Program-made: the position numbers and the translations under genes | The notes under the pieces: model-generated | Told to the model about the DNA's origin: nothing | What the model saw: the letters and a program-made list of their open reading frames with translations, nothing else | Database searches by the model: none | Shown here: positions 8,524 through 30,536 of the stretch, in pieces | Numbering within the stretch: position 1 is the first letter of the stretch | How the letters are laid out: each line of letters opens with the position of its first letter | Source: Leptolyngbyaceae cyanobacterium M33_DOE_097 | Lineage (GTDB): Bacteria > Cyanobacteriota > Cyanobacteriia > Leptolyngbyales > Leptolyngbyaceae | Length of the DNA stretch: 33,237 nucleotides | Direction of reading: 5' to 3' | Assembly: GCA_015296075.1 (NCBI GenBank) | Contig: DVDV01000185.1 | Coordinates: 1-33,237 of the forward strand

Positions 8524-9183
8524 TCACAAAAGTCCTCGGTATCGAATAAAAATTAAAATCACTGCCCATGAACCAAGAGCAACTTTAATTGCAACTAAAA
8601 TATTAAGTATTGGAATGATTCCGCCACTTATTAAAGCTCCTAAATCTCCATGCGGTAGTTCCAAGCCAGTTAATGTCATGACCGATAGAAGAATAAAAAT
8701 CAGGACAGATACCTTTTCCCACATGGCCGCTCGCCAGCGTTGGTAAATTGTCTGCATCCATTCTGGAGAAGAGGTCATAGCCACTAGCCCGATCGCCGTT
8801 CCACCTGCAACGCCCGCCGCGAAACCTCCCCCAGGGCTAAGGTGGCCCCGGAGTGCTAACTCAATTCCAACAAGGGCTGCGATCGTTGCCCCTAAACGAG
8901 CTAACAAGATTGAAGATTGATCGGTAAACTGATGTACCTGGCTTAATGGACGTTCATTCGCCAGCAAAAAACTGCTGCCAATAATGGCGATCGTAAATAC
9001 AATCACTTCAAAAATAGTGTCGTATAGACGATTGCGAAGAATAATGCCTGAGACAACATTGGGCACACCGCTATCTTGCACTACTGCAGCAACAATCGAA
9101 AATGGCAAAGACGGTGATGCATTTGTTAATAAAAACATTTTGAAATAAAAGGCGATGCCTGCCGCAACATAAATCCATCTCAT
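8524..9183 (-). CDS. mrpB: Mrp Na+/H+ antiporter subunit B (MnhB domain)
   Basis: A 219-residue membrane protein with about six helices. After an N-terminal hydrophobic segment comes IILRNRLYDTIFEVIVFTIA and the MnhB hallmark ALRGHLSPGGGFAAGVAGGTA. It forms part of the hydrophobic core of the Mrp complex, which exchanges cytoplasmic Na+ for H+ at the plasma membrane. It is the last gene of the operon, and its start overlaps the mrpA stop by 4 bp. It is longer at the N-terminus than stand-alone MnhB; that part may supply helices belonging to MrpA in other bacteria. Confidence 0.9.
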   Translation of the reverse strand: MRWIYVAAGIAFYFKMFLLTNASPSLPFSIVAAVVQDSGVPNVVSGIILRNRLYDTIFEVIVFTIAIIGSSFLLANERPLSQVHQFTDQSSILLARLGATIAALVGIELALRGHLSPGGGFAAGVAGGTAIGLVAMTSSPEWMQTIYQRWRAAMWEKVSVLIFILLSVMTLTGLELPHGDLGALISGGIIPILNILVAIKVALGSWAVILIFIRYRGLL

Positions 9184-9761
9184 AGACAGACCTCTTTGGG
9201 ATTTAAAGCATTGATATCGACTAAAACAGAAGTCAAACTAGGATCAGCATTGAGAATCTCATGAATACGCTGAAGTCGAGTATTTAGATAGAAGGAATCA
9301 CCTGTATAACCTGCTTTAGCGTCTGATTGAGTGTAGATTACATGAACTTCTTTATTGATGAGCGCATGGTGTAAATCTGCATGATCTAAATAGGGAACAA
9401 GTTCAACTCGTAAATGATATTTTTCAAATAGAACCCGGAGGTTCGCGAGTTTTTGTTTGAGATGATTGGTGTGATCCTGATCCGCATCTTGCTCGATCGC
9501 CAGGAAATCATCTTTCAAAACTCCTAACCGCAACACCAGAGAAGAGCGCACTGCAACAGCATAGAGTGTAATTGCCAGCAAAGTTCCGACGAGTGCTTCT
9601 GTCAAGGCAACATCTGCCGCTCCTAAGATTGCGTACACCAACGCAGAAATCGCCCCAAGCACCCCCCGAATCACCAGCGCATGGTAAGGATTGGTCTGAA
9701 ATACCAGCATAGACGCAGCGAGCGGCAGCAAGGCTGTAATGATATAGACATAACTATCCAT
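9180..9761 (-). CDS. mrpA: Short MrpA-type subunit: DUF4040 membrane domain plus soluble C-terminal domain
   Basis: A 193-residue protein. The first ~80 residues contain three membrane helices of the DUF4040/MbhD type (ALVIRGVLGAISALVYAILG; GAADVALTEALVGTLLAITL), equivalent to the C-terminal part of a full MrpA. The large NuoL-like antiporter part of MrpA is absent. After KDDFLAIEQDADQ comes a soluble domain of about 110 residues (FEKYHLRVELVPYLDHADLHHAL; SLTSVLVDINALNPKEV) whose function I cannot name. Short MrpA proteins are known in cyanobacterial mrp operons. It overlaps mrpG by 8 bp and mrpB by 4 bp. Confidence 0.82.
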   Translation of the reverse strand: MDSYVYIITALLPLAASMLVFQTNPYHALVIRGVLGAISALVYAILGAADVALTEALVGTLLAITLYAVAVRSSLVLRLGVLKDDFLAIEQDADQDHTNHLKQKLANLRVLFEKYHLRVELVPYLDHADLHHALINKEVHVIYTQSDAKAGYTGDSFYLNTRLQRIHEILNADPSLTSVLVDINALNPKEVCL

Positions 9762-10047
9762 CTATCTGCCCTCCGTCATTAGAGTCGCTACTTGAGCAGT
9801 AGGCTAAAACATAACCCAACATTGTGTTCCAGAGTACCAGAGAAAGAATCGCGAGCAGTAATAAAGGAAACTCTGTTGGTCGTCTCAGAAGCAACCCAAA
9901 AATGATGGCGATCGAGCCGAGCGTATCTGACACAGAGAGATGATGAAGTTTAAACAGCACCGATCGCGAACTCAATAGAGATACAGTTCCCCAAAACCAG
10001 AAAACCAGCCCAACTCCAAGGCAAAAGTAGCTTAATAGGTTAATCAT
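9754..10047 (-). CDS. mrpG: Mrp antiporter subunit G
   Basis: A 97-residue protein with three membrane helices. The family signature is FKLHHLSVSDTLGSIAIIFG, the short cytoplasmic loop and following helix of MnhG/PhaG. It is an essential small subunit of the Mrp complex. The C-terminus is hydrophilic (SSSDSNDGGQIDG). It overlaps the mrpF stop by 4 bp and mrpA by 8 bp, so translation is coupled. Confidence 0.9.
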   Translation of the reverse strand: MINLLSYFCLGVGLVFWFWGTVSLLSSRSVLFKLHHLSVSDTLGSIAIIFGLLLRRPTEFPLLLLAILSLVLWNTMLGYVLAYCSSSDSNDGGQIDG

Positions 10048-10298
10048 GAATCACCCATCCGCTTCAAAATGTGTGCTAGCAGCATAAAACCAGCATTGCC
10101 GACACTTAGGATGATGACACCAACAATTCCAATCATCCAATCATCGCGCAGAATCGAAACCAGCAGAATCATCACTGCCGATTTTGCCGAAACACTGGCT
10201 AATGCCAGCATCGTCTGCCAAATATCCTCATCTCTCCAGGCCTGATAGAGCGGGATGAGTAAGGCCACAATCATTGCCATAAGAACGAGATTTAACAT
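10044..10298 (-). CDS. mrpF: Mrp antiporter subunit F
   Basis: An 84-residue, three-helix protein (MLNLVLMAMIVALLIPLYQAW; SAKSAVMILLVSIL; IGIVGVIILSVGNAGFMLLA). Size, topology and place between mrpE and mrpG match MnhF/PhaF, though the sequence itself is weakly conserved in this subunit. Its start shares one base with the mrpE stop, and its end overlaps mrpG by 4 bp. Confidence 0.85.
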   Translation of the reverse strand: MLNLVLMAMIVALLIPLYQAWRDEDIWQTMLALASVSAKSAVMILLVSILRDDWMIGIVGVIILSVGNAGFMLLAHILKRMGDS

Positions 10299-10687
10299 TA
10301 TGACCGCTTCCTCCTAGCAAGGCGATGAACTTCATACCAACCCGCCTTGTGATACTTCAAAACGATGGTCATCGGCGTAAATGTAATCAGAAAAATATCC
10401 AAGAAGATCAGACCTGGCGATCGCCGAGATTGAACGCGCTCCATCACGATCTCTTCGTGATTGTGGGGCTTGAGAATCAGCTGGACAGCCTCACCATACG
10501 CTTGTGGAATGGCAGCAACAATCTTGCCCAAACCCTGGAGTAAATCTTTCAGTCGTTCTGGAGAAGTCCGTGAGGGGAGTCCTGGTAATAGAAGAGACAC
10601 CCCAACACCAATAATGATATTTGCCAAGCTAAAGTTTGCTGTGAGCAAAAACCAGATGACCAGTCGGAGGATAAGATGTCCAATCAT
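10298..10687 (-). CDS. mrpE: Mrp antiporter subunit E
   Basis: A 129-residue protein with two N-terminal membrane helices (LILRLVIWFLLTANFSLANI; IIGVGVSLLLPGL) and a cytoplasmic C-terminal domain with the family pattern PQAYGEAVQLILKPHN followed by TFTPMTIVLKYHKAGWYEVH. It belongs to the MnhE/PhaE family; subunit E supports assembly and activity of the complex. It is slightly shorter than the usual ~160 residues. It overlaps mrpD by 4 bp. Confidence 0.88.
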   Translation of the reverse strand: MIGHLILRLVIWFLLTANFSLANIIIGVGVSLLLPGLPSRTSPERLKDLLQGLGKIVAAIPQAYGEAVQLILKPHNHEEIVMERVQSRRSPGLIFLDIFLITFTPMTIVLKYHKAGWYEVHRLARRKRS

Positions 10688-12144
10688 GCTAATGCCATCC
10701 AGAACAACAAGATTAAACTCAAACTCATAACACCGATCAGATGCTCAAATTGCTCAAACATGCGAGGTAGCTTGATCGCAATCCGTCCAAAAATGAACCA
10801 GTAAAGCAGCCAACCGATCGCGATTGTCGCAAGCGGTTTAACAACATTCTCAAGGCTATAAGCATCGTAATAGATGAGATTAGCAACAAACAGGCCACCG
10901 ACTAGCAATCCCATTGCTGTCCAAAAACCTACCTTTAAGGGCGAGTTATGCAGTGTCTGAGCAGCCTCAGCTTTGCCAAGATTTTTGTGTGGTAAAAAGA
11001 TAAATTTCGCAAACGAAATGGCGGTTCCTAAAGCGGCAAGGTTCATTCCAACCACCTGCCAGGGTAACAGGTTTTTCATGGTTAGCACCTTTGCCCCAAA
11101 TCCCGATAAGAGGGGGAAACCCGAAATCGAAAAACTGGCGATCGCCAATGCGATCCAAATTGGGGTATGAATGGGTTGGTTCTGCAGTTCCTTAAAATTG
11201 CGGCTTGGCAGCACTCCTGCAATCAAAAAAAGAGCTGACTTGACCAATCCATGAGTTAGGGCGTAAAACCCACCTACTTCTGGGGCTGCGAGAATAAAAC
11301 CCAATTGGGAAACCGTATGAAAGGCTAACATCCGTTTGGTGTCCTTCTCAAAAACAGCATAGAAGACACCAAATAAAGCCGTACCCACCCCAAAAACGCG
11401 AATGATGGGATCAACTTCTTCGAGCAGCAGGGCACAACGAGCCAACGGCAGCACGCCCGCTTTCACAACCGCGCCCGACATCAACGCTGAAACGGGCGAT
11501 TCTGATTCAGAGTGGGTCAGTGGCAACCACAAGCCAGAAACAAAAATGCCACCTTTAACTAACAACCCCATAAAAATCAGCGCAAGTGCCTCTGGAGGGG
11601 CCTCTCGCAGACCAATAAAATCGAAGGAATGGTGAGCTTTGTAAACCAGCACCGCGCCAACCAGGTAGAACAGCATGGCGACGTTACTAACAAACAAATA
11701 CCGCAACCCAACCCAAATAACGCGATCGCTACGAGGGTAGGCAATTAAAAGAAAAGCAGCAATACTCAATACTTCTAGAGCAACATAAAGGCTAATAAAG
11801 TCAGCACAGGCAAGCGCTGCATTCACACTGCCATGCAAGATTAGCGTTTGTGCATAAAAGAATGTCGTACGACTACTGCGCCAGCAATAAATGATGACCG
11901 CCGCTGTCACCAGTGCATTCGTTAAGACAAAGAACCCTGTCAAAGAATCGAGTAACAAATTCACCCCGAAGTGATCCAGCAGCCTCAGGGTGAGCGGCGA
12001 TCGCAACGTAAATAGTTGAGCCGCAAAAGCAGCCGAAGCAACCGCTCCAGTTAGCGCTAGCGATCGATCTAGCCGGGGAAATAAATAGATGATAAACCCG
12101 GCTAGAAACGGGAAAGTAACCCAGATGAGTGTCAGCGTAGTCAT
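10684..12144 (-). CDS. mrpD: Mrp antiporter subunit D (NuoN/NuoL-like proton/sodium-translocating subunit)
   Basis: A 486-residue polytopic protein with about 14 helices, homologous to the antiporter-like subunits of complex I. The conserved charged residues of the ion path are visible: Glu in LYVALEVLSIAAFLL, Lys in GLLVKGGIFVSGLWLP, Lys in GAVVKAGVLPLARCALL, and His/Lys in FHTVSQLGFIL and HGLVKSALFLIAG. Because MrpA here lacks its own antiporter half, MrpD is the only such subunit encoded in the complex. It overlaps mrpC by 4 bp (ATGA) and mrpE by 4 bp. Confidence 0.92.
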   Translation of the reverse strand: MTTLTLIWVTFPFLAGFIIYLFPRLDRSLALTGAVASAAFAAQLFTLRSPLTLRLLDHFGVNLLLDSLTGFFVLTNALVTAAVIIYCWRSSRTTFFYAQTLILHGSVNAALACADFISLYVALEVLSIAAFLLIAYPRSDRVIWVGLRYLFVSNVAMLFYLVGAVLVYKAHHSFDFIGLREAPPEALALIFMGLLVKGGIFVSGLWLPLTHSESESPVSALMSGAVVKAGVLPLARCALLLEEVDPIIRVFGVGTALFGVFYAVFEKDTKRMLAFHTVSQLGFILAAPEVGGFYALTHGLVKSALFLIAGVLPSRNFKELQNQPIHTPIWIALAIASFSISGFPLLSGFGAKVLTMKNLLPWQVVGMNLAALGTAISFAKFIFLPHKNLGKAEAAQTLHNSPLKVGFWTAMGLLVGGLFVANLIYYDAYSLENVVKPLATIAIGWLLYWFIFGRIAIKLPRMFEQFEHLIGVMSLSLILLFWMALA

Positions 12145-12476
12145 GGCGTGTTGCTTCTCTCAATCTCGTTGGTTTCTAGAGTGGGGTTATCTTGCGCCAA
12201 CTTCATCACCCCAACCAGCATCAGTGCTTGAATTGAAAAACCAATCACGATCGCCGTTAGGATGACAGCCTGAGGCACAGGATCAGCATAAGCACCTTTG
12301 GGGTCGCCTGCAAGAATCGGAGTAAACACCCCCTCACGAGCTGCGACCACCACGTAATAGGCGATCACTCCCGTACTCATGACATCCATCGAAATGATCT
12401 TCATGATCAGGTTTTTCTTGAAAATAATGCCGAAAAACCCTAACAAGATTGTGAGAAAAACAAACGCTTCTAGCAT
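12141..12476 (-). CDS. mrpC: Mrp antiporter subunit C (NuoK-like)
   Basis: A 111-residue, three-helix protein of the MnhC/NuoK family. The helix-2 and helix-3 signature ADPVPQAVILTAIVIGFSIQ is clear. The hydrophilic tail (NPTLETNEIERSNTP) overlaps the mrpD start. It begins two bases after the antiporter gene upstream and therefore belongs to the same transcript. Confidence 0.9.
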   Translation of the reverse strand: MLEAFVFLTILLGFFGIIFKKNLIMKIISMDVMSTGVIAYYVVVAAREGVFTPILAGDPKGAYADPVPQAVILTAIVIGFSIQALMLVGVMKLAQDNPTLETNEIERSNTP

Positions 12477-12478
12477 GA

Positions 12479-13891
12479 CTAATCACTCACTGGCTCTGCT
12501 TGAGGAGGAGAATCAATCGCTGATTCCCCAGATTGACCAAAGGCAACTCGTAAAAATGGAGGAGCAAGAAAGGTTGTCAAGATGACCATGATAATGATCG
12601 ATACTTCCAAAGGCTTGTCTAAAATGCCACTTGCAGAACCAATTCCTGCAAAGACAAGACCCACTTCCCCTCTCGGTATCATACCAACACCGATCGCAAC
12701 CCGATTGATCCCCGGTTGACCAAAGACAGACCAGCCAGTGATCAATTTGCCAATAATTGCCACCCCAATTAAAAAGACAGCAATTAAAAGTCCGGCTCGG
12801 TTTTCAGGTACGGTTGGATTTAAAACCCCTAAATCGGCGCGTGCCCCTACAGTAACGAAAAAGATGGGAGTCAGCAAATCAGCGATCGGCTTGACCAATT
12901 CATCTAACTCATTACGAGCATCTGTTTCATCGAGTACTAAGCCAGCTGCAAACGCTCCTAAAATGGCCTCTAAATGGATTGCATTGCCCAAAAAGGCCAT
13001 AAAAAAGGCAAAAATGAATGCAGGAATCACAATATTCCCACGTGTCTTTAACTTGTCAACAATTGATACAAACGTTTTATTGAAAATACCACCCAGAAGA
13101 ATTGAACCAATTAAGAAGGCGGTTGCGCTGCCAATCAAGTAAATGACATTTGCAACATCAATTTCACCTGTTTTCGCTAAGCTCGCAACAACTGCCAGGA
13201 CAATAATGCCAAGAACATCATCAATTACTGCCGCGCCAACAATGATTTGCCCTTCTTTGGATTTGAGTTGACCTAACTCTGATAACACTTTAGAGGTGAT
13301 ACCGATACTCGTTGCCGTTAACGCGGCCCCCGCAAAAATTGCTGGAATTGCCGCTACATGAAAGAGTATCATCAACCCTGCCGTACCCGCCGCAAAAGGT
13401 GCCGCGACCCCGACACAGGCGACAACCGTGGCTTGAATTCCCACTTCCTTCAGTTGCCGCAGATCGGATTCCAGTCCAATTTCAAACAGCAGAATAATTA
13501 CGCCGATTTCAGCCAGAACCGAAATCACTTCACTTTGCGACTCAAAGATCCGGGTCAGCGCATCCGGTGCCAAGTGATTTAATCCTTGCAGCGCTGTCAT
13601 AATCACCGAGTCAGAGGCAGACATCCCTCCTTCGGGAAAAATCACCAGGTGTAACGCCGAAACCCCGACAAGTACACCAGCGACCAGTTCCCCCAAGACA
13701 GGCGGAAAGTCTAATCGCCTAGCGACCTCTGCACCAAATTTACTGGCCAGATAAATCACCACCAGCGTCAGCAGTACGCCAGACAGAATGATGGGTGAAT
13801 CCTCAGCAACAACAGTCGCCAGGACGGGTATCGGAGCCATCAGAGTGGCTATTCCCCCACTGAAAGGAGGCAGAATGTTAGATAAAATCAT
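12479..13891 (-). CDS. CPA-family cation/proton antiporter (NhaS3/Kef-type)
   Basis: A 470-residue membrane protein with about 12 helices. It carries the double-Asp ion-binding motif of CPA2 antiporters (GAAVIDDVLGIIVLAV), an early RRLDFPPVLGELVAGVLVG, IILLFEIGLESDL, and late FVTVGARADL and MIPRGEVGLVFAGIG motifs. There is no C-terminal TrkA-N domain, so it is not a full KefB/C. It resembles the cyanobacterial NhaS3 type, which is inference. It leads the mrp genes with a two-base gap to mrpC and follows sbtAB, so it probably takes part in Na+ extrusion that supports Na+-driven bicarbonate uptake. Confidence 0.9.
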   Translation of the reverse strand: MILSNILPPFSGGIATLMAPIPVLATVVAEDSPIILSGVLLTLVVIYLASKFGAEVARRLDFPPVLGELVAGVLVGVSALHLVIFPEGGMSASDSVIMTALQGLNHLAPDALTRIFESQSEVISVLAEIGVIILLFEIGLESDLRQLKEVGIQATVVACVGVAAPFAAGTAGLMILFHVAAIPAIFAGAALTATSIGITSKVLSELGQLKSKEGQIIVGAAVIDDVLGIIVLAVVASLAKTGEIDVANVIYLIGSATAFLIGSILLGGIFNKTFVSIVDKLKTRGNIVIPAFIFAFFMAFLGNAIHLEAILGAFAAGLVLDETDARNELDELVKPIADLLTPIFFVTVGARADLGVLNPTVPENRAGLLIAVFLIGVAIIGKLITGWSVFGQPGINRVAIGVGMIPRGEVGLVFAGIGSASGILDKPLEVSIIIMVILTTFLAPPFLRVAFGQSGESAIDSPPQAEPVSD

Positions 13892-13974
13892 GAGTCTAAA
13901 GCGATGAAGATTAAGAGTTTGAGGCAGTCATGAAACTGCGGAGCGGGATAAAAGAGGCAACCGGGCAAGGGCAG

Positions 13975-14165
13975 TCATGCTTTAAATACGGTTGCCTGGA
14001 TCGAGACAAGCCTGGTCGTCAATGAGTGATGCGGGCGAATGGTGTCGAGATTATCTTGAATCACAATCAGTTTCTCCATTTGGGCATCATCTAAATCGAC
14101 TAGCGGTTTGAGTAATGGTCACCAAAAAGCCGGGGTCATGACCTGGCCATTTAGGGCTGCGTCAT
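13975..14165 (-). pseudogene. Possible decayed coding remnant between sbtB and the antiporter gene
   Basis: Directly after the sbtB stop, the minus strand has protein-like but broken frames. One reads DDAALNGQVMTPAFW before a TGA. In the same frame after that stop comes LVDLDDAQMEKLIVIQDN and then DTIRPHHSLTTRLVSIQATV, ending at 13975. From the first ATG (14077-14079) only 34 residues remain. I do not recognise the family. The neighbourhood also has a 10-bp direct repeat GGCAGTCATG (13923-13932 and 13970-13979) and an inverted repeat GGCAACCG/CGGTTGCC (13956-13963 and 13989-13996). It may be a true remnant or chance. Confidence 0.3.
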
Positions 14166-14531
<366 letters not shown>

Positions 14532-14588
14532 TTAATCTATTGGGTCTGCCGAGCTCAGGGAGCGCCGACAGACTGTGACCCATCTGGA

Positions 14589-15680
14589 TTAGAGTCCGCC
14601 GAGCGCCTGAGCAAGCCCGACGAAGAACGGGATACACAAGCCGATCGCAATTGGCGTGCCGATGGCTGTGGACGCACCAATATAGGCGGAGGGATTAGCA
14701 GATGGGATACCGGCTCGCAACGTTGGTGGGCCTGAAATATCCGAACTGGAGGAGGCAATAACGGCCAGAATAACGACACCGCCCATGCTGAATCCTGCAA
14801 CTTGGTGGGCAATCATGCCGAGACCGAAGGCGATTAGCCCATGAATAAATGGTGCCACTATGCTATATACGACATACCATTGGGCCACCTTGCGCAGTTC
14901 ACCAAGTCTAGACCAAGCTTCCATGCCCATAACCAGCATTAGAATCGCCAGCAAGCCGCGAAAAGCGGGATCGAAGAAGCCCTTATAGACGCTTTCCGGC
15001 TGGGCGAACAGGCCAAGAGCGAGACCTAACAACATTGCCGATAAGGCAGGACCCTGGAGGCTTTCCTTAATAATTGGCCAGATCTGAACCCGATTAGCAC
15101 CAGGATCCTTCTGCTGGTCGCGATATTCCTGCTTGGTGCTGGGATAATTGACTGCTTCTGCGGCACTAGCCTCTAAGGCAGCAGACTTAGCCTTCTTCTT
15201 GTTGAGATAAATGTTGGCCACAACAATCGCAGTCACGAGCGCTGGGATATCCATAAAGGGATAAAGTGCGCCAGCCCATGCCTCATATGGAATTTTTTGT
15301 TCTTCCAGTAGCGTCAGTCCGGCGGCCATGGTAGAACCACTCACGGCTCCAAACAACCCCCCCGTTGCAAGCGCATCCACGACTTTGACCTTTGGTAGTT
15401 TAGCCAGTGTATAGCGTGCAATGAAGACAACCAGAACCCCTACCATTACAGCAAAGAGCATGGGTAACACCATCTCCGTCAGGTTGGAATTGCGAATCGC
15501 AATTCCACCAGTCAGTCCGATTTTGGTAAGCAACATAAAGACAATGATCGAACAAATTGCGTCTGGAATGACCAATTCGCTACCGAGAGCCGCAATGATC
15601 ATCCCCCCAATTAAAAAGCTGAGTGTTGGGGACTGCAACTGCTTAATGAAGTCCATTAAAAATAAGGACAAAAAATCCAC
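14589..15680 (-). CDS. sbtA: SbtA, sodium-dependent high-affinity bicarbonate transporter
   Basis: A 363-residue membrane protein with about 10 helices in two inverted halves. The chosen start is GTG at 15678-15680: it reads MDFLSLFLMDFIKQLQSPTL, matching known SbtA N-termini, and GGAGG lies six bases upstream. An in-frame upstream start at 15716 would bypass that site. Visible signatures include GGLFGAVSGSTMAAGLTLLE in the first half and SSSSDISGPPTLRAGIPSAN then IGASTAIGTPIAIGLCIPFF in the second, with a hydrophilic cytoplasmic loop between. It symports Na+ and HCO3- into the cell for the CO2-concentrating mechanism and is normally induced at low inorganic carbon. Confidence 0.97.
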   Translation of the reverse strand: MDFLSLFLMDFIKQLQSPTLSFLIGGMIIAALGSELVIPDAICSIIVFMLLTKIGLTGGIAIRNSNLTEMVLPMLFAVMVGVLVVFIARYTLAKLPKVKVVDALATGGLFGAVSGSTMAAGLTLLEEQKIPYEAWAGALYPFMDIPALVTAIVVANIYLNKKKAKSAALEASAAEAVNYPSTKQEYRDQQKDPGANRVQIWPIIKESLQGPALSAMLLGLALGLFAQPESVYKGFFDPAFRGLLAILMLVMGMEAWSRLGELRKVAQWYVVYSIVAPFIHGLIAFGLGMIAHQVAGFSMGGVVILAVIASSSSDISGPPTLRAGIPSANPSAYIGASTAIGTPIAIGLCIPFFVGLAQALGGL

Positions 15681-15900
15681 GAATGCCTCCTTCTCCCCTG
15701 ACGAGGAGTATTGCAATAGATGAACTAAATGAACTCTAGGAGTTAAAGAGTGTAAGAGTGAGGCGCTTCACCCTTACAGCCCAAGCGTCGCACGAGAACC
15801 TCTAGACAGGGCTTAAGGTCATTAGCCCCGTCGGTTCAGAGGTCACGTCAGGGTACTACCAAACAGGGCAGCCCAAAAGCCGCCATAAACTGCCCTGTAG
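15681..15900 (-). promoter_or_regulatory. Structured upstream region of sbtA with three stem-loops
   Basis: Read toward sbtA, three inverted repeats follow one another. A: 15898-15890 with 15871-15863 (ACAGGGCAG, perfect 9 bp, 18-base loop). B: 15828-15824 with 15813-15809 (GGGCT, 5 bp). C: 15778-15751, an almost complete 28-bp palindrome (TGTAAG..CTTACA, one mismatch, one wobble pair). C ends about 70 bases before the GTG start. This could be a folded 5' leader or contain a regulator site such as a LysR-type CcmR/NdhR operator; neither is proven, and no T-tract attenuator is evident. Confidence 0.4.
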
Positions 15901-18287: not shown

Positions 18288-19610
18288 ATGCTGGAACAGT
18301 TACAGACATTTTTAAGTCCTTCTGGGTTTATTCCACATGGGCACTGCTACCTCTGGAAGTCGCCTCTCGTTTGGCTCCATCTTGTTTCAGATAGCATCAT
18401 CGCGCTATCCTACTTCTCCATTCCTATCACACTGCTCTATTTCACTACGAAACGAAAGGATATTCCTTTTAACTGGATCTTCTGTATGTTTGGGGCTTTT
18501 ATTCTCGCGTGTGGAGTGGGGCACGTAATGGATGTTTGGACACTCTGGCACCCTAACTACTGGACTTCTGGCCTGATTAAAGCCCTCACAGCATTGATCT
18601 CCGTTATTACAGCGCTTGAATTGATCCCGCTTGTACCTAAAGCACTGGCACTTCCAAAACCGGCTGAACTAGCCGCTTCTAACCAGGAGTTAGAAGCCAC
18701 CCTTCGCCAACTGCAGCAGGCTCAAATTCAGTTGATTCAAACCGAGAAAATGTCAAGTTTGGGTCAACTTGTTGCCGGAATCGCCCATGAAATTAACAAC
18801 CCAATTAACTTTATTCATGGCAACTTGACCCATGCCACTGAATATATCCAGGAACTCGTAGGATTGTTACAGCTTTACCAAAAGACTTATCCAGAGCCAG
18901 AACCAGAGCTTCAAGCAGCACTGGAAGAGTCTGAAGCGGAGTTCATCCTTGAAGATTTGCCTAAGCTAGTTACCTCTATGCAAGTTGGAAGTTTACGGAT
19001 TCGGCAATTAGTGTTGTCGCTCCGAAATTTTTCGCGTTTAGATGAAGCGGATATGAAACCTGTTAACTTGCACGAAGGGATCGACAGCACACTCCTTATT
19101 TTACAAAATCGATTACAGCCAAAGGTCGGACATCCAAGCATTAGCCTGATCAAGGAGTATGGTACGTTGCCTTTGGTGGAATGCTATGCCGGACAGATCA
19201 ACCAGGTATTTATGAACATTATTGCGAATGCGATCGATGTGTTGGAAGCAGAAGGAATCAGAACATCGACAGCAGACGAAACGAAAGCGTGTTATTTACC
19301 TTGCATCAAAATTCGGACAAGTCTGTGTGATTCAAACTGGGTCATGATTGAGATCTCTGATAACGGAGTGGGTATGAGTGAGGCAGTCAAGCAGCAGATT
19401 TTTAATCCTTTCTTTACAACAAAAAGTATCGGAAAAGGGACAGGACTGGGCCTATCGATTAGCTATCAAATTATTGTTGAAAAACATGGTGGCTCATTAG
19501 AATGTATGTCTACTCCTGAGCAAGGAACCACGTTTCAAATTCGGATCCCAACCCAACAGCCGCGATCGCACCTCGCTTCTGGCCGAGTCATGACCCAATT
19601 GACTCCTTGA
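18288..19610 (+). CDS. Ethylene-receptor-like sensor histidine kinase
   Basis: 440 residues. The N-terminus has three membrane helices matching the ethylene-binding domain of plant ETR1: HLVSDSIIALSYFSIPITLL, then FGAFILACGVGHVMDVWTLW. Residues D35, Y42, I72, C75 and H79 correspond to ETR1 D25, Y32, I62, C65 and H69; the Cys and His bind the Cu(I) cofactor in ETR1. A coiled coil (LEATLRQLQQAQIQLIQTEK) leads directly, without a GAF domain, into the kinase: phospho-acceptor H167 in [15 protein letters not shown]-box NQVFMNIIANAIDVL, ISDNGVGM and FFTTKSIGKGTGLGLSISYQ. No receiver is attached or next door. Cyanobacterial ethylene receptors are known (Synechocystis Slr1212); ethylene as the ligand here is inference from the conserved residues. 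Confidence 0.92.
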   Translation: MLEQLQTFLSPSGFIPHGHCYLWKSPLVWLHLVSDSIIALSYFSIPITLLYFTTKRKDIPFNWIFCMFGAFILACGVGHVMDVWTLWHPNYWTSGLIKALTALISVITALELIPLVPKALALPKPAELAASNQELEATLRQLQQAQIQLIQTEKMSSLGQLVAGIAHEINNPINFIHGNLTHATEYIQELVGLLQLYQKTYPEPEPELQAALEESEAEFILEDLPKLVTSMQVGSLRIRQLVLSLRNFSRLDEADMKPVNLHEGIDSTLLILQNRLQPKVGHPSISLIKEYGTLPLVECYAGQINQVFMNIIANAIDVLEAEGIRTSTADETKACYLPCIKIRTSLCDSNWVMIEISDNGVGMSEAVKQQIFNPFFTTKSIGKGTGLGLSISYQIIVEKHGGSLECMSTPEQGTTFQIRIPTQQPRSHLASGRVMTQLTP

Positions 19611-19706: not shown

Positions 19707-20528
19707 ATGCAGGTGACGATCGCGGCTCTAATTTGGGATAAACCACCTCATCTAGCAGCATTTCTCGATGCGTGCAAGGCGCGTGCTGTCGAGGCTTTAG
19801 GTCAAAAGTTTCGAGGCTACGACACAGACAAGCAAATTCACGCCACGATTGTAGGACTTGAACGCATTCCTACAAACACCTCCGCATTTCATAACGCGAA
19901 CTTCAACAGGCATCGCCAGTGCCAGTTAGAGATGGACTATGCAGGTTTGCTCAATTACTTTCAGACGTGTGCCAATTTCCCAATCCAAATTCAGATTGGA
20001 GGTTTTCAGAACCGAGACTACCCATTTGTGAGTCGGGGCGATCGCCCCTTTTCGCGCTCTTTCTCCATCCGTCCTGGACGCAACCATGCAGGCGATGAGG
20101 TTGAATTTATTGTGATGATGGGCTGGCCAATTCAGGCAAGAGAGCTGACCACTGCTCAAAACCAACTGCCAGAGCTTAATGAAACACTCAAGTACCCAAA
20201 ATCTCTCGACTCTATTCGACAAACGGTTCAAACGTTTAATGCGCTGCACGCCTATCATGCAGCACCGACTGATATAGACAACGACTTCTTTTTTCGGATT
20301 GGCATCATTGATAACCCAGCCGCGATTGATCCCGTTATCAAACACCAGCTTATTGACTCAATGCGTGAGTGGCTTGCCCACCGTGATCCAATTATCGTCA
20401 ATGTGAAACGCTCAGATGTTTGGCTGATTCAATATGCATCGCCTGAGTTGCCACCCGACTCAACGACCAACCCTTATCGAATCACTGACCCAAATCTAGA
20501 CGCAGACTTTTGTCGATCGCTCTACTAA
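19707..20528 (+). CDS. Protein of unknown function with an HxT motif (possible 2H phosphoesterase relative)
   Basis: A 273-residue soluble protein, ATG at 19707. I do not recognise a named family. Near the N-terminus KQIHATIVGLE (H45, T47) has the HxT look of 2H phosphoesterases (LigT, 2'-5' RNA ligase group), and the C-terminal strand SDVWLIQYASPELP sits where a second HxT/S would be expected, but the histidine is absent there. The middle (DRPFSRSFSIRPGRNHAGDE, then EFIVMMGWPI) is strand-rich with many aromatic and Arg residues. It lies between two histidine kinases of the same type, 96 bases after the first. A role in their pathway is only suggested by position. Confidence 0.6.
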   Translation: MQVTIAALIWDKPPHLAAFLDACKARAVEALGQKFRGYDTDKQIHATIVGLERIPTNTSAFHNANFNRHRQCQLEMDYAGLLNYFQTCANFPIQIQIGGFQNRDYPFVSRGDRPFSRSFSIRPGRNHAGDEVEFIVMMGWPIQARELTTAQNQLPELNETLKYPKSLDSIRQTVQTFNALHAYHAAPTDIDNDFFFRIGIIDNPAAIDPVIKHQLIDSMREWLAHRDPIIVNVKRSDVWLIQYASPELPPDSTTNPYRITDPNLDADFCRSLY

Positions 20529-20753: not shown

Positions 20754-23291
20754 ATGTTGCAGAGAGTAACTACTGGTTCCCCTGAACGCGATCGCTCGAA
20801 CTTAGCCAGCTCAACTCAATTACCTCGCAATCTGAGCCTTGTAGAGACTTGGGGATTTGGCCTGACAGGTCTGCTGTTATGGATGGGAGTCGCACCGGGC
20901 ACCCAGGCTGAGTTAGGCGCGCAGGCAATGTGGGTTTGGATTCCGGGGGCGATCATCGGAGTTTTAGTCAACTTACAGGTTCGCGCTTTAGGGCAGATGT
21001 TTCCGGATGTGTCTGGGGGCACACCCAACTACGTCACGCATCTGCTGAAAGACTACCCAAAACTCACGAGCTATGCGGCGATCGGCTACTTTATCAGTTG
21101 GGTCGCCGTTTTACCCGTCAATGCCATCATTTTGGCTGACTTGATCAATGCAGTTCTAGAGCCGTTAGGCATTGCATTGCCCGATCTGGCATTACGAGTC
21201 GGCTTCACCGTTATAGCCTTTGTTGTTGCTTTTAGCGGCAGCCAGGCTTTAGGCACTCTGCACCTCGTCTTCTTATTACCAGCTGTCGGGTTTCTCCTGG
21301 CGTTTTGCTTACAAGGCACTCACGCAGTGCTGTCTTCATCCTCTACCCTCAGCATCTTGCCCGACAACAGCTCTACTTTTTCCTTTCAGGGTTGGGCTAA
21401 GTGGTATCTCAACGGCACCTACGCATTTTATGCCTGCGAAACCGCATCGGTCTTTGTCGCTGACAGTAAGAAGCCCTTTGGTACACTGCAAAGTCTACTA
21501 GTTGCGGCAGCGTTCATTCCGCTTGTATATATTGGCGGTTCCTGGGTATTGCTGCACCTGGCACCCGACACTGGACTGGCCAACAATACTTTTTTGAGTT
21601 TGTTAGCCGCTGCCAAGCCCTTTTGGGGAGAGTCGGCTTCATTTTTAGTGACGTTTCTTGTTGTCTCCAGCAGTTTGCTGTCTTGTGCGACAGCGGTTTC
21701 TATCTGTCCGCGAGTTCTATATCAGTTAGCCCAAGATCATCACCTCTCTCCAATATTTAGTGTGACTTCGCGCCAGGGCGTTTTTGCACCAGGTTTACTG
21801 CTGACCCTAATTTTGAGCCTGGTCTGGCTGATTTGGGGAGACGTTCATCAAATTGTGATGATCACAGGCGTTAGCTGGCTTGTGTGTTTTATCGTCTTAC
21901 ATTGGGGTTTGTGGCAACAGCGCAATGACTCAGTGGTGTTCTTGCCCTGGTTGTCGCTGGGGCTTTGTGTGTTAGAGGTGTCAGCCTTACTGGTTGGTGG
22001 TTTTGCCTGGGGGCTGCAAGATTTGCTGATCGGTCTGTTACTACCGATCGCCCTGTTAGCGATCGACGGGCTACTGCGGCAATTGCCTCTGCAAGCTCAC
22101 ATGACGCAATGGCTTAAGTATTGGTATCGCGATCGCAAGCAAAAAACGCTGCACGGGTTTATTGCCTTGCAGGTGTTTGTGCTGGTTCTGTTCATTTGTG
22201 GTGCGACCATCCTGAGCTGGTTTGGTAGTACGCTTGTAGCCAACAGTGCCACCGGACTCAATGCCGATCTGCTCGTTGTGATGATTTTGGTGCTCTCCTT
22301 TATTGGCATTGCCGTTGCCTGTTGGACTATTTTTCCTCAAATTGTGGCAGTCGATGAAGCTCGTCAAGAAGCCGAAGAGTTATCAAATGATCTGCAACAA
22401 ACCCTGCAGCAGCTTCAGCAAACTCAGCTCAAAATGGTGCAGCAAGAAAAAATGTCGAGCCTGGGCCAACTGGTCGCTGGAATTGCCCATGAAATCAATA
22501 ACCCCGTCAACTTCATTTATGGAAATGTCAACCACGCCCAAACCTACGTTGAGGACTTGTTGAGCTTTATTCAGCTGTATCAGAAGCAATATCCCGGCCC
22601 TCACCCAGAAATTGACGAAGCAGCAGAAAGCATTGATTTAGAGTTTCTGCAAGTCGATTTACCCAAGCTTCTCAGCTCTATGCAGATTGGCACAGACCGG
22701 ATTCGCGAAATTGTGCTGTCACTGCGCAACTTTTCTCGCATGGATGAAGCCGAATTTAAGGCCGTCGATATTCATAGCGGCATTAACAGCACCTTGATGA
22801 TCTTGCAACACCGGATTAAAGCCAATACCCAACGTCCAGAAATTGCCGTGATCAAGAACTATGACCATCTGCCGCTGATTGAATGTTGCGCCGTACAACT
22901 AAACCAGGTGTTTATGAACATTTTGTCCAATGCGATCGATGCCCTGGATGAGATGAATGTAAAACGGAGCTATCAAGAAATTGAAGCAGACCCCAATCGC
23001 ATTACCATCACCACGGCTGTCATTGATTCAAACTGGGTACAGATCGCGATCGCCGACAATGGCCCTGGCATCCCTGAAGCGATCAAAAACCGGATTTTTG
23101 ATCCCTTTTTCACCACCAAAGCCGTTGGCAAAGGTACGGGGATTGGCATGTCCATCAGCTACCAAATCATTGTTGAAAAACACGGTGGAAAGCTTGAGTA
23201 CTTCTCATCCCCCACTCAGGGAACCGAATTTATCATTCAAATTCCTGTCCACCAGTTAGTTTCAGAAGGTGCTTTAGATCCACCGCTTTAG
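20754..23291 (+). CDS. APC-type permease fused to a sensor histidine kinase
   Basis: 845 residues in one uninterrupted frame. Residues about 30-450 form a 12-helix amino-acid/polyamine/cation (APC) permease: a helix-1 break of the type [16 protein letters not shown], a proline/glycine-rich [20 protein letters not shown] and [20 protein letters not shown]. Next come two more helices with a short extracytoplasmic loop ([39 protein letters not shown]), a Gln-rich coiled coil ([17 protein letters not shown]), then the kinase: H579 in [58 protein letters not shown]. The kinase half closely resembles the ethylene-receptor-like kinase upstream. The permease part may sense its substrate by transporting or binding it, as proposed for CbrA-type fusions (which use another transporter family). 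The substrate is unknown. Confidence 0.9.
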
Positions 23292-25625: not shown

Positions 25626-26810
25626 TTATAAAACGGGATGTGCAATTACGGGGCAGTTGATAATTGCCTTAGTTGGGCGCAAGCCGTATAGCCAGGGGTT
25701 ACTCGGGCCATCAGGATTGATCGAAGCATTTGTCACCAACCCAGCTTTTATCAATCCTTGTAGGTCTTCAAACGAGGTAATTCTTCTAACTTTGTTTGCT
25801 TTGATGGCTGCTTCTGTCCACATATTGACGTGGGCATCCCACAAAGGGCTGTAGTTATTGTTGGCAGAGCGATCGTTATTCGACGGGGGATAAGGGAAAA
25901 CGTTAATTGGGTCAATCCCACCATTTGCTAATGAAGCGGTGAATCCTTGATGTTGACCTGTGCTCGTGTCGGTAATTCCATTCAGCACCGGGGAGAAACC
26001 CAACAGCGCAGAGCGATCGGAAGGCGTTGATTTTCCATAGGCAGGAATATTCGCCAATCGGGGTGTATAAACACCTTTCTCTAAAACGGAGGGAACATCC
26101 GCTGATACATCCGTCACCAGATGATAGAAATATTGCCGACCTCCCTGAAACCCATCCAGGATGGATAAGGTTACTGTTCGCTGCTTTAGATCTAGAGATA
26201 CGAGGCGATCGTGACTGCCTGAAGCATTATGAACAAGTTGCACGTTTAGAACAACTTTGCTGGGCATGACAACCATAGAAGACCACTGAGCATCTCCCAC
26301 AGCTCCTGGTTTTGCCACTTTAGGAGGAAAAACTTCTGGCGAGCCTGGTTCAACTTGATACTCAGGAGAAAAATCGACATTTCCTTTGAACTTGAGCAAC
26401 CCTCCCTGCAAAGTGACCGTTTGGGCACCGTTAGAAGCGATCGCGTACTTCATCTTAGGGGCGTAATTGACGCCCAGTCTCTTAGCCACATTGAAGTCAG
26501 AAGCTTCTGTGATGATGTAGTACACAGAGTTGCCTTTGGGCGAAAGCCCTCGGTACAGGGGTAGCGTTACATTTGCTTTATCAGGGGTAAAGTCAATTGC
26601 CAGGGCACTCTTGACATAGACATTGTCGCTAGGCTTAAACTTAACGGCTGTTTTTTCAGAATAAATTGGTCTGCCCGATTCTTTCGCAGCTGTTGCTAGC
26701 AAAGCTTGAGCCTCTGCCATTCCATTGGGTGCAGCTACAACATATCCTGACCCAATCGACACCATTAGGGCAAGTAGGAATCCGATCACCAATCCCAATC
26801 GCTTATTCAT
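25626..26810 (-). CDS. Secreted protein of unknown function
   Basis: 394 residues from the ATG at 26808-26810, preceded by GGAAGG. A signal peptide is clear (MNKRLGLVIGFLLALMVSIG, then VVAAPNG), so the protein is exported. The rest is hydrophilic and looks like two related beta-rich halves: one containing VTLPLYRGLSPKGNSVYYII and TEASDFNVAKRLGVNYAPK, and a second with VTLSILDGFQGGRQYFYHLV and TDVSADVPSVLEKGVYTPRL. A C-terminal part has PLWDAHVNMWTEAAIK and ends with NCPVIAHPVL. I know of similar exported proteins in other soil bacteria but no assigned function. It appears monocistronic. Confidence 0.8.
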   Translation of the reverse strand: MNKRLGLVIGFLLALMVSIGSGYVVAAPNGMAEAQALLATAAKESGRPIYSEKTAVKFKPSDNVYVKSALAIDFTPDKANVTLPLYRGLSPKGNSVYYIITEASDFNVAKRLGVNYAPKMKYAIASNGAQTVTLQGGLLKFKGNVDFSPEYQVEPGSPEVFPPKVAKPGAVGDAQWSSMVVMPSKVVLNVQLVHNASGSHDRLVSLDLKQRTVTLSILDGFQGGRQYFYHLVTDVSADVPSVLEKGVYTPRLANIPAYGKSTPSDRSALLGFSPVLNGITDTSTGQHQGFTASLANGGIDPINVFPYPPSNNDRSANNNYSPLWDAHVNMWTEAAIKANKVRRITSFEDLQGLIKAGLVTNASINPDGPSNPWLYGLRPTKAIINCPVIAHPVL

Positions 26811-27485
26811 GTATCCTTCCTTTGAGAGTGATTCAATTAACAAACTCATCCCCACTGATTGAGCCACTGCAAGCTGAGATCCCATGAGATCAGCTCGGTC
26901 AATACCTGATCACTGAAGAGCATTTGCTAAGGAATAGGAACCAAATAATAACGAGAAAATAAGACGGAAAGGGCTAACTTAAAGGAGAAGCTGAGGGCTA
27001 CTATTATCAATGCTTTGGGCACATTTTGAGCAGATTTTGCAGCTTAAATCTCGATTCCATTGTGAATGGGTCTTATTGTCAAAGTTAGCTTTACTCCTAA
27101 CTTTGATAAAGTAGCCCAGCCCTTGACTGGCGAGTTCTGAAAGTCCTACAGAACGATTGAAAAAACAGTCTGGACGATTGCCTTAGAGAACCGATCCAAA
27201 AGTCCGAATCGTCTTTGCTGGATGCCATACACAGGCTCAGTGAATTCGCACAAGCTGGTATTTTTCAGGTTTCTCCCCCAAAATAATACTTACAAAATCA
27301 ATCTACTTAGAAGTACTTTAGTTCTACTTCCTGTCGCCTGTTGCTGTAAATCCCTATGGCCTTGAATGATGCTGCATTCTCTTCAACTTGGGACGAATAG
27401 GCAATTTGTCCTCTAAAAAAACAACTGCCATAGCAAACGCGATCGCTACAGCAGTTTTGTCAGTTATGTAAGAGGAGAGATTCGA
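26811..27485. other. Gene-free stretch with an inverted repeat
   Basis: No gene is seen in about 675 bases. Besides the terminator at 27415-27456, there is a perfect 10-bp inverted repeat, TCAAAGTTAG (27079-27088) and CTAACTTTGA (27097-27106), with an 8-base loop. It lies about 270 bp upstream of the secreted-protein gene. No T-tract follows; its function is unknown. Confidence 0.45.
27415..27456 (-). terminator. Rho-independent terminator of the winged-helix protein gene
   Basis: Read on the minus strand, AACTGC (27456-27451) and TAGC (27448-27445) pair with GCTA (27434-27431) and GCAGTT (27428-27423), followed by a run of seven T (27421-27415). It starts about 30 bases after the gene's stop. 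Confidence 0.8.
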
Positions 27486-28976: not shown

Positions 28977-29460
28977 TGAAATGGAATCGGTACAGACAGA
29001 GGATTCTCCAGGCGAACGACATCGGGGCAACAATACGATGCTGGAATGAGTAGTATGTCAGTACTGCAAAAGTGATGACGGAGTGCAGGGCGGAACTCCT
29101 GCCTGGGGCGTGCCTCTACATCCTCTTGTGCCAAACTCTATGAATATCGCTATACCTTTGATGCTGACTTTTAAGTGAGGGCAACAATGCGGATCGAAAG
29201 GTGATCTCGTTGTATGTCCACACTTAGCCAACTCGGACTGGATCAGATTTTGGATGTTCTTGATGGAGTACCAGTTCGTTCCCAAGCCTACAAAATCTTC
29301 TATGTCCAGCGGTAAGTTAGGATTACATTAACAACTTAATCTACAGTCCTAAATCTGTTGTGGGGTTGGGCGATCGCCGTGCGAGGCTCTTTCTGCAGGA
29401 AATTTCTCACAATCGAAATAGGCTTGCTGATTTGGGTATTTATGCTTGACAATCACAAAT
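28977..29460. other. Intergenic stretch with one tiny open frame
   Basis: No clear gene in about 480 bases. The plus strand 29214-29315 encodes 33 residues (MSTLSQLGLDQILDVLDG, then VPVRSQAYKIFYVQR) of protein-like composition but without a ribosome site. It could be a remnant or a small protein, at low confidence. A minus-strand frame over 29058-29285 does not look coding. Confidence 0.25.
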
Positions 29461-29838
29461 ATGACCAAAAAAGTCCTCTTGATCGACGATGATTTAGACA
29501 TTCAAGAAATCACTCAAATTGTTATTCGCAAAATTGCCGGATGGACAGGCATTTCGGCTACAACTGGAATTGAAGGGTTACAGAAGGCAAAAACAGAATT
29601 GCCTGATGCAATTCTCTTGGATATTTCCATGCCGGATATGGATGGATTTCAGGTGTTTGAGCAACTGCAAGCTGACCCCGTGACCCGATCAATTCCGGTT
29701 ATATTGTTGACTGCAAAGACATCCCACAGCGATCGCGATCGTTTTGCTGAAATGGCGATTGCAGGAGTGATTTCAAAACCTTTTGACCCGGTAACGCTTT
29801 GGCAACAAGTGGCTACCTTTTTGGGATGGCCTCTTTAA
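29461..29838 (+). CDS. Single-domain response regulator (receiver only)
   Basis: 125 residues from the ATG at 29461; the in-frame TTG at 29446 is not needed. It is a canonical receiver: acidic cluster D9-D11 (VLLIDDDLD), phospho-acceptor D54 in ILLDISMPDMDG, T84 in ILLTAK and K106 in ISKPFDP. There is no output domain, so it acts by protein contact or as a phosphotransfer intermediate. It could serve one of the orphan kinases upstream, though they are 6 kb or more away. The next gene is a diverged relative that has lost these residues. Confidence 0.93.
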   Translation: MTKKVLLIDDDLDIQEITQIVIRKIAGWTGISATTGIEGLQKAKTELPDAILLDISMPDMDGFQVFEQLQADPVTRSIPVILLTAKTSHSDRDRFAEMAIAGVISKPFDPVTLWQQVATFLGWPL

Positions 29839-30119: not shown

Positions 30120-30536
30120 ATGACTTCTAGGCTTATCTTACTGGTCAATGAAAGTAATGCAGAGGAGGAAAAAGTTATTCGCCTGTGTTTAAATCACGTC
30201 GCAGGTTGGAATGTCGTTTCTATTTCCTCTAAATATAAAGAACTCAGTTTGTTGCTCAAAAATCAGCCTGATGCGATTATTATTAATGCCTTATTAACCA
30301 ATATTAATGGCCTCAGCTCAAACCAAACAGGTCTAATTCACAATCTTAAAAAACATCCTGTGACCCAAAGCAGCCCCATCTTGTTGTTGATTGATACAGC
30401 CAACTGGCTCACAACTGTCCAATTCAAAACTTGGAGAATCGCAGGAGCGATCGTTAAACCGTTTGATCCGATAACGTTGCCTTTGCAGATTATGAGTATG
30501 CTGGGGTGGAATGAGCCTCAAGAACGGTTGATGTGA
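30120..30536 (+). CDS. Atypical receiver domain protein lacking the phospho-acceptor Asp
   Basis: 138 residues with the same length and framework as the receiver gene just upstream (LILLVNESN versus VLLIDDDLD; GAIVKPFDPITL versus GVISKPFDPVTL; both with a GW-containing C-terminal helix). The acidic pocket is replaced by N10-E11, the phospho-acceptor position is N56 (DAIIINALLTNING), and the conserved Thr is replaced. Only the Lys (K113) remains. It probably arose by duplication and works without phosphorylation, for example by binding partners. It is co-directional with the first receiver, 281 bases downstream, and carries no output domain. Confidence 0.82.
   Translation: MTSRLILLVNESNAEEEKVIRLCLNHVAGWNVVSISSKYKELSLLLKNQPDAIIINALLTNINGLSSNQTGLIHNLKKHPVTQSSPILLLIDTANWLTTVQFKTWRIAGAIVKPFDPITLPLQIMSMLGWNEPQERLM

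Follow-up and report, generated by a model that had tools for sequence, protein, structure and literature searches.

Does the gene at 20754-23291 on the forward strand of the window, the whole 33,237-nucleotide stretch of DNA from Leptolyngbyaceae cyanobacterium M33_DOE_097 that was analysed here, encode a transporter, a sensor, or both in one chain? A preliminary description, made from the letters alone, had read it as a full APC permease joined to a complete histidine kinase through two extra helices and a coiled coil, and had proposed that the transporter-shaped part acts as a sensor. We find this sensory role likely, and the fusion to be real and conserved as a fusion.

One reading frame and its predicted structure

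The frame of 845 codons is unbroken from the ATG at 20754 to the stop codon ending at 23291, and encodes in order an APC-fold permease and two further transmembrane (TM) helices, then a long helix leading into a histidine kinase that bears H, N and G boxes. In Pfam, AA_permease (PF00324) is matched at residues 36-378 (E 1.1e-8; 34.6 bits vs a cut-off of 24.6), which places the protein in the APC family by sequence match; PF13520 is absent from its Pfam rows, and the NCBIfam APC models reach about 25 bits, far under their cut-offs of 578-850. Relatives with no AA_permease row at E 0.001 also exist, e.g. L069, L074, L080 and L087. The permease half gave no match in a single-sequence search of the PDB sequences, whereas a profile of 30 family rows reached LysP as the sole solved structure (9eyd, E 7.9e-5), and the alignment to E. 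coli LysP has an E value of 2.8e-5. Residues 379-569, which contain the two extra TM helices, gave no match to the Pfam models searched, among which STAC may be missing.

The kinase end carries the H box and a HATPase_c domain with N and G boxes, as in sensor histidine kinases. Its dimerisation and phosphoacceptor part (22449..22748, forward strand) includes H579 (22488-22490), a histidine aligned in 87 of 90 kinase-type rows, and its HisKA match at residues 570-594 lies slightly below the cut-off (25.2 vs 26.9 bits). The catalytic domain (residues 714-833; 22893..23252, forward strand; HATPase_c E 8.9e-25) displays the N box NAIDAL together with DNGPGIP and GTGIGMS. This end matches solved histidine kinases such as LvrB among the PDB sequences, and the nearest NCBIfam family is T2SS_HK, under its cut-off (233.7 bits vs 450).

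Across the junction (residues 450-565), the mismatches to six close relatives amount to 0.28-0.38, 0.09-0.16 and 0.50-0.64 at codon positions 1, 2 and 3, a pattern typical of coding DNA. Moreover, in a set of 58 genomes of relatives, the permease half was recovered in 24, and all 30 full-length matches (two fragment rows are left out of this count) lie in fused frames of 738-1419 amino acids. Analogously, a phylum sample of 292 genomes, with at most five first-look candidates scored per genome and four partial rows left out, returned the permease half in 27, with 36 of 36 full-length matches in fused frames of 822-1194 amino acids. No stand-alone family member occurs among the full-length matches of either set. 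The permease-kinase fusion of the window is confirmed, contradicting the idea, raised as a possible refutation in the preliminary description, that two separate genes are present; a frame error or chance open reading frame was rejected on the basis of the fused homologues and the coding pattern at the junction.

The AlphaFold2 model of the protein was built on 81 sequences (mean pLDDT 84.6) and has a pTM of 0.66, rendering the relative placing of permease and kinase unreliable. It comprises a 12-helix domain followed by two extra helices, 466-497 and from 503, and, similar to the LeuT fold, it shows breaks in helix 1 (residue 42) and helix 6 (residue 226). The permease-like domain (residues 20-459; 20811..22130, forward strand) includes an interfacial helix in addition to the 12 TM helices. 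Using VIA-align (model range 19-459), it matches y+LAT1 with a Z of 37.0 (431 residues, 3.5 A), SLC7A10 with 36.8, KimA with 36.6, AdiC with 35.9 and ApcT with 35.2, while Foldseek placed kinases on top for the window model, then y+LAT1 and LAT1. A second model, of the block of the GGDEF-EAL member L152 (which shares 48% identity with that of the window; mean pLDDT 84.4, pTM 0.85), maintains the helix 1 break (residue 38), with helix 6 unbroken; here KimA comes first in VIA-align at 37.1 and y+LAT1 has a Z of 36.2, with relatives as for the window block. Both predicted models thus display the APC/LeuT-type 12-helix fold, and by this fold and by Pfam the block is an APC-derived domain.

The two extra helices, TM13-14 (residues 466-535; 22149..22358, forward strand), have lower confidence in both models, roughly 60-79 per ten residues. 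In the window model a single helix spans 503-612, comprising TM14 and reaching into the kinase, and the stretch between membrane and kinase (residues 536-565; 22359..22448, forward strand) is a predicted signalling helix within it. Hence, the fusion, the 12 helices and the two extra helices of the preliminary description stand, but its complete kinase includes a weak Pfam match for HisKA, and its coiled coil is only a predicted long helix.

Conservation and loss in the permease core

The break of helix 1 (residues 39-48; 20868..20897, forward strand) is where the family departs from stand-alone APC transporters. All 101 distinct members have W43 (20880-20882) and none has glycine at both 42 and 44; one member, L079, holds GPG further on, at 45-47. 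By comparison, among 25 control proteins, stand-alone APC members encoded in this genome and its neighbours, helix 1 contains G-x-G-[IV] in 22, of which 21 were counted by script and one, L213, was added since its motif lies beyond an N-terminal extension; the remaining three have SGDFSG instead. The 25 controls derive from 29 loci, from which L206, with no frame, and the partial frames L226, L230 and L231 were dropped. Profile alignment using hhalign pairs G-x-G with 'LL-W' by opening a gap of one residue, in agreement with the predicted break, and the equivalence of the helix 1 residues rests on this gapped alignment and on that break. G-x-G of APC helix 1 holds the substrate carboxylate, and a lysine of TM5 couples protons in ApcT; in the family alignment, the aligned TM5 positions 165-185 have no lysine.

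Other parts of the core are retained. Helix 6 (residues 211-234; 21384..21455, forward strand) keeps an APC-like Y-[AGS]-C-E-T pattern, with E229 in 100 of 101 members, and 33 columns of the permease core are invariant in 30 rows. Loss of permease core residues in homologues, named earlier as grounds for refutation, is therefore seen in part: the fold is kept in the two models, but G-x-G is gone throughout and the TM5 segment is without lysine. As the motif of amino acid transporters is missing, we do not class the block among functional amino acid transporters of the APC family, and the proposed reporting of amino acid or amine flux is unsupported. Transport would still be compatible with a missing G-x-G, considering that three stand-alone controls are also devoid of the motif, and the strong conservation of the core would equally be expected of a working transporter, which counts against a reading as a receptor.

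The ligand of the block need not be an amino acid. Ion transporters, namely KimA and NKCC1, match it about as well as amino acid transporters do in VIA-align, and since K+ and chloride transporters match about equally, the fold alone does not name the ligand. The same genomes also encode stand-alone APC transporters (AA_permease_2), which are alike in fold and alignable in sequence (hhalign E 3e-15, 367 columns), but they occupy their own shorter genes, three of them in the genome of the window with frames of 451-466 amino acids, and mostly retain G-x-G.

Spread of the block and its output domains

Scanning of 84,980 species genomes returned 226 relatives, of which 80, all with cyanobacterial titles, entered the analysis (146 lie outside). 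The best frames of the 80 loci all extend past the permease, with three shortened by a contig end (L133, L156) or an early stop (L121), and together the collected 110 proteins collapse to 101 distinct ones. The fusion is also present in named isolates such as Phormidesmis priestleyi and Leptolyngbya, while a search of plasmids for the family gave no match. The distribution is patchy: the sole genome of the same genus has no copy of the permease half, and the window's own genome has a second family copy, a PAS-GAF-kinase on contig C8 (L061).

Several loci hold two fusion genes in tandem or near-tandem, L126 (2858-5785 and 5947-8889), L145 (5923-8736 and 9386-12205) and L123 (5902-8826 and 11056-13296), which suggests local duplication, possibly with divergence of the ligand. 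Furthermore, some members end early: L121 (5974-7800, 609 aa) and L067 (2294-4384, 697 aa) both stop inside HisKA, and L108 (2715-4991, 759 aa) has PAS alone. These may be broken copies, assembly errors or split genes.

With the two truncated kinases included, a further signalling domain follows the block in 98 of the 101 distinct proteins. The three exceptions are L133 and L156, the frames of which are cut by the contig end, and L108, which has only PAS. Histidine-kinase parts are found in 93 proteins, 91 of them with a hit for the catalytic domain. The output classes stem from single-sequence phmmer, with L067 and L121 counted as kinases despite their early ends, and comprise PAS-HK (61), HK (24), PAS-HK-REC (4), and HK-REC, PAS-GAF-HK-REC, PAS-GAF-HK and HisKA_2 (1 each), the remainder being PAS-GGDEF-EAL (3), PAS-SpoIIE (2), PAS only (2) and none (1). 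Pfam, applied to 29 relatives of the initial search and 10 of the 80 named loci, likewise yielded kinases, some of which include PAS, GAF or receiver domains while others do not. GGDEF-EAL is located behind the block in L149, L152 and L166, SpoIIE in L097 and L098, and a HisKA_2 kinase in L148. Placement of an APC block before GGDEF-EAL and SpoIIE is an unusual link to cyclic-di-GMP and PP2C-type signalling. With 93 of 101 outputs being histidine kinases, the diversity is real but uneven.

In a tree of the sensor block, the output class changes at least nine times and the presence of PAS changes five times; the tree is a quick one of 100 rows (98 classed), with long branches and 33 of 97 inner branches open, L156, L133 and L108 being without output class and L156 absent from the tree. 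The window protein falls in an 11-row clade of kinases lacking PAS, adjoining the SpoIIE member L097. With this repeated change of output behind it, the 12+2-helix block acts like an exchangeable module for input, and such reuse, as read from the domain assignments, would be expected of an input module rather than of a transporter fused once by accident.

TM13-14 carry residues that are kept across these classes. Q473 and W489 are invariant in the column counts, Q473 being kept in 3/3 GGDEF-EAL, 2/2 SpoIIE, 1/1 HisKA_2 and 92/92 other kinase rows; W524 is kept in 3/3, 2/2, 1/1 and 91/92, respectively. The latter belongs to the AIACWT-x-LPQ segment of TM14 (residues 520-529, read in the window protein as [10 protein letters not shown]), which is strongly conserved and maintained in the SpoIIE and GGDEF-EAL members, suggesting a common coupling element.

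Candidate roles and genomic surroundings

Taken with moderate confidence, the gene product would be a membrane receptor kinase, the sensor of which is a former APC transporter, with H579 controlled by a ligand or ion via TM13-14 and the long helix. A small ligand or ion would occupy the central cavity of the block and shift the LeuT-type domain between states; this movement would be relayed by TM13-14 and along the continuous helix, and would thereby control how H579 autophosphorylates, from which phosphate would go to a response regulator encoded elsewhere. Transport would, with less certainty, have been lost or be merely incidental. Such a receptor is favoured over a flux-reporting transporter.

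The main competing explanation is a true transceptor of the CbrA type, in which the APC part still transports and a single chain combines transport with kinase control. The complete predicted APC fold and the conserved permease core speak for it, and so does precedent, as CbrA both takes up histidine and autophosphorylates according to PMC7918813 and PMC13022988. Yet G-x-G is missing in every one of the 101 members, the TM5 positions are devoid of lysine and no stand-alone member is found among the full-length matches of the relatives set and the phylum sample, making this a possible but rather unlikely account. Less probable still is that the APC part serves as a membrane anchor or scaffold, with the signal being read by cytosolic PAS or GAF domains or by the kinase itself. 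Most relatives (72 of 101) do possess a PAS domain, and PAS is considered a likely signal site of CbrA in PMC7918813; however, 25 of the 101, including the window protein (24 HK and one HK-REC), have neither PAS nor GAF between block and kinase, and 12 helices with invariant residues of the buried type far exceed the needs of an anchor. An artefact of sequencing or assembly that merged two genes can practically be dismissed, considering that the full-length homologues found in independent genomes are fused too and that the coding pattern continues across the junction.

The preferred reading as a receptor has relatives among known systems. The SLC5/STAC kinases (CbrA, CrbS/MxtR, RpuS), the comparison already made in the preliminary description, share a LeuT-fold transporter joined to a kinase, and CbrA remains a valid precedent. 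Nevertheless, CbrA belongs to the SSS (SLC5) rather than the APC family, its linker is the soluble STAC (PMC13022988) and not two TM helices, and it transports histidine (PMC7918813 and PMC13022988), whereas the window family has a changed helix 1 motif. Pfam gave no SSS match in the window protein at E 0.001, a test of sequence, as LeuT-fold families are alike in structure. SSS domains with PP2C-type outputs, mentioned for Actinobacteria in PMC7918813, parallel the SpoIIE members. The SLC5 comparison was however too narrow, since an Amt-kinase fusion, Ks-Amt5, is published, which according to PMC5764959 binds ammonium, has lost transport and regulates its own kinase. Its transporter domain is repurposed as a receptor and joined to a kinase with PAS, HAMP and STAC all missing, an arrangement that the window protein shares for PAS and HAMP and probably for STAC; it differs in its trimeric Amt fold and known ligand (PMC5764959), the window family having a LeuT fold, two extra helices and several outputs. 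At E 0.001, the window protein has no Pfam match to the Amt family. The 5TMR/S-component receptors also use a transporter-related membrane fold as a kinase sensor with several outputs, but that fold is of the ECF S-component and not of the APC type (PMC11109136).

LysP, of the APC family, acts as co-sensor of CadC. It is a transporter acting on a separate regulator, whereas the window family combines sensor and output in one chain. Among the open papers listed by literature searches, GGDEF combinations included, no title or abstract beginning describes an APC-kinase fusion. This speaks only weakly for novelty, the searches having left most of the subscription literature outside. We see about even chances that the family constitutes an undescribed class of sensory domain: an APC transporter turned dedicated receptor, its substrate motif replaced by an invariant tryptophan and two added helices serving as universal coupler, which has spread among cyanobacteria and feeds into signalling by two-component systems, PP2C and cyclic-di-GMP. 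If so, the APC fold would, like SLC5 and Amt, have been turned into a sensor, on a broad scale, and many cyanobacteria would use a single input block for outputs of the kinase, phosphatase and cyclic-di-GMP kinds. The family would moreover offer a natural system for how LeuT-type conformational cycles become signals, and could help to trace what orphan kinases of cyanobacteria respond to.

The window fusion gene itself looks like an orphan kinase: no response regulator is adjacent to it in the window, with receivers only at 29446 and 30120. Among 80 related loci, the closest downstream gene on the same strand, at most 112 nucleotides away, carries a receiver domain in 10, so that some members sit in two-component clusters. 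Clustering of the neighbours of these 80 loci brought up signalling genes and synteny among close strains, and no nameable shared transport or metabolic gene. Congruently, when 11 genes of the window were compared with 111 loci by tblastn, the window neighbours were not conserved round the homologues, only scattered ABC-ATPase and receiver hits and a single ETR1_N-type hit, in L158. A promoter scan gave 2 sites vs 4.1 expected and was set aside.

Upstream of the fusion gene, a protein of 273 amino acids without Pfam match is encoded at 19707-20528 on the forward strand, preceded by an ETR1_N (ethylene-receptor-like) histidine kinase at 18288..19610 on the same strand (ETR1_N E 6.1e-43), the kinase part of which is 55% identical to the fusion kinase. 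We treat it as a neighbour only, any partnership with the fusion kinase being putative. Its helix segment ACGVGH contains a cysteine and a histidine that we take to resemble a copper/ethylene site, and judging by its residues the protein may bind ethylene. Downstream, an ABC-2 exporter pair, assigned by Pfam, runs in the opposite direction, and a predicted secreted-type protein with a DUF7482 match is located at 25626-26885. The receivers are two tandem proteins (29446-29838 and 30120-30536); the latter, at 22.5 bits for Response_reg against a cut-off of 30.2 and with an apparent asparagine at the expected phospho-aspartate, may be a pseudo-receiver. Finally, the region 8524-15716 groups Mrp-type antiporter genes with those of a Na+/H+ exchanger and a bicarbonate transporter resembling SbtA, forming an ion and carbon transport neighbourhood.
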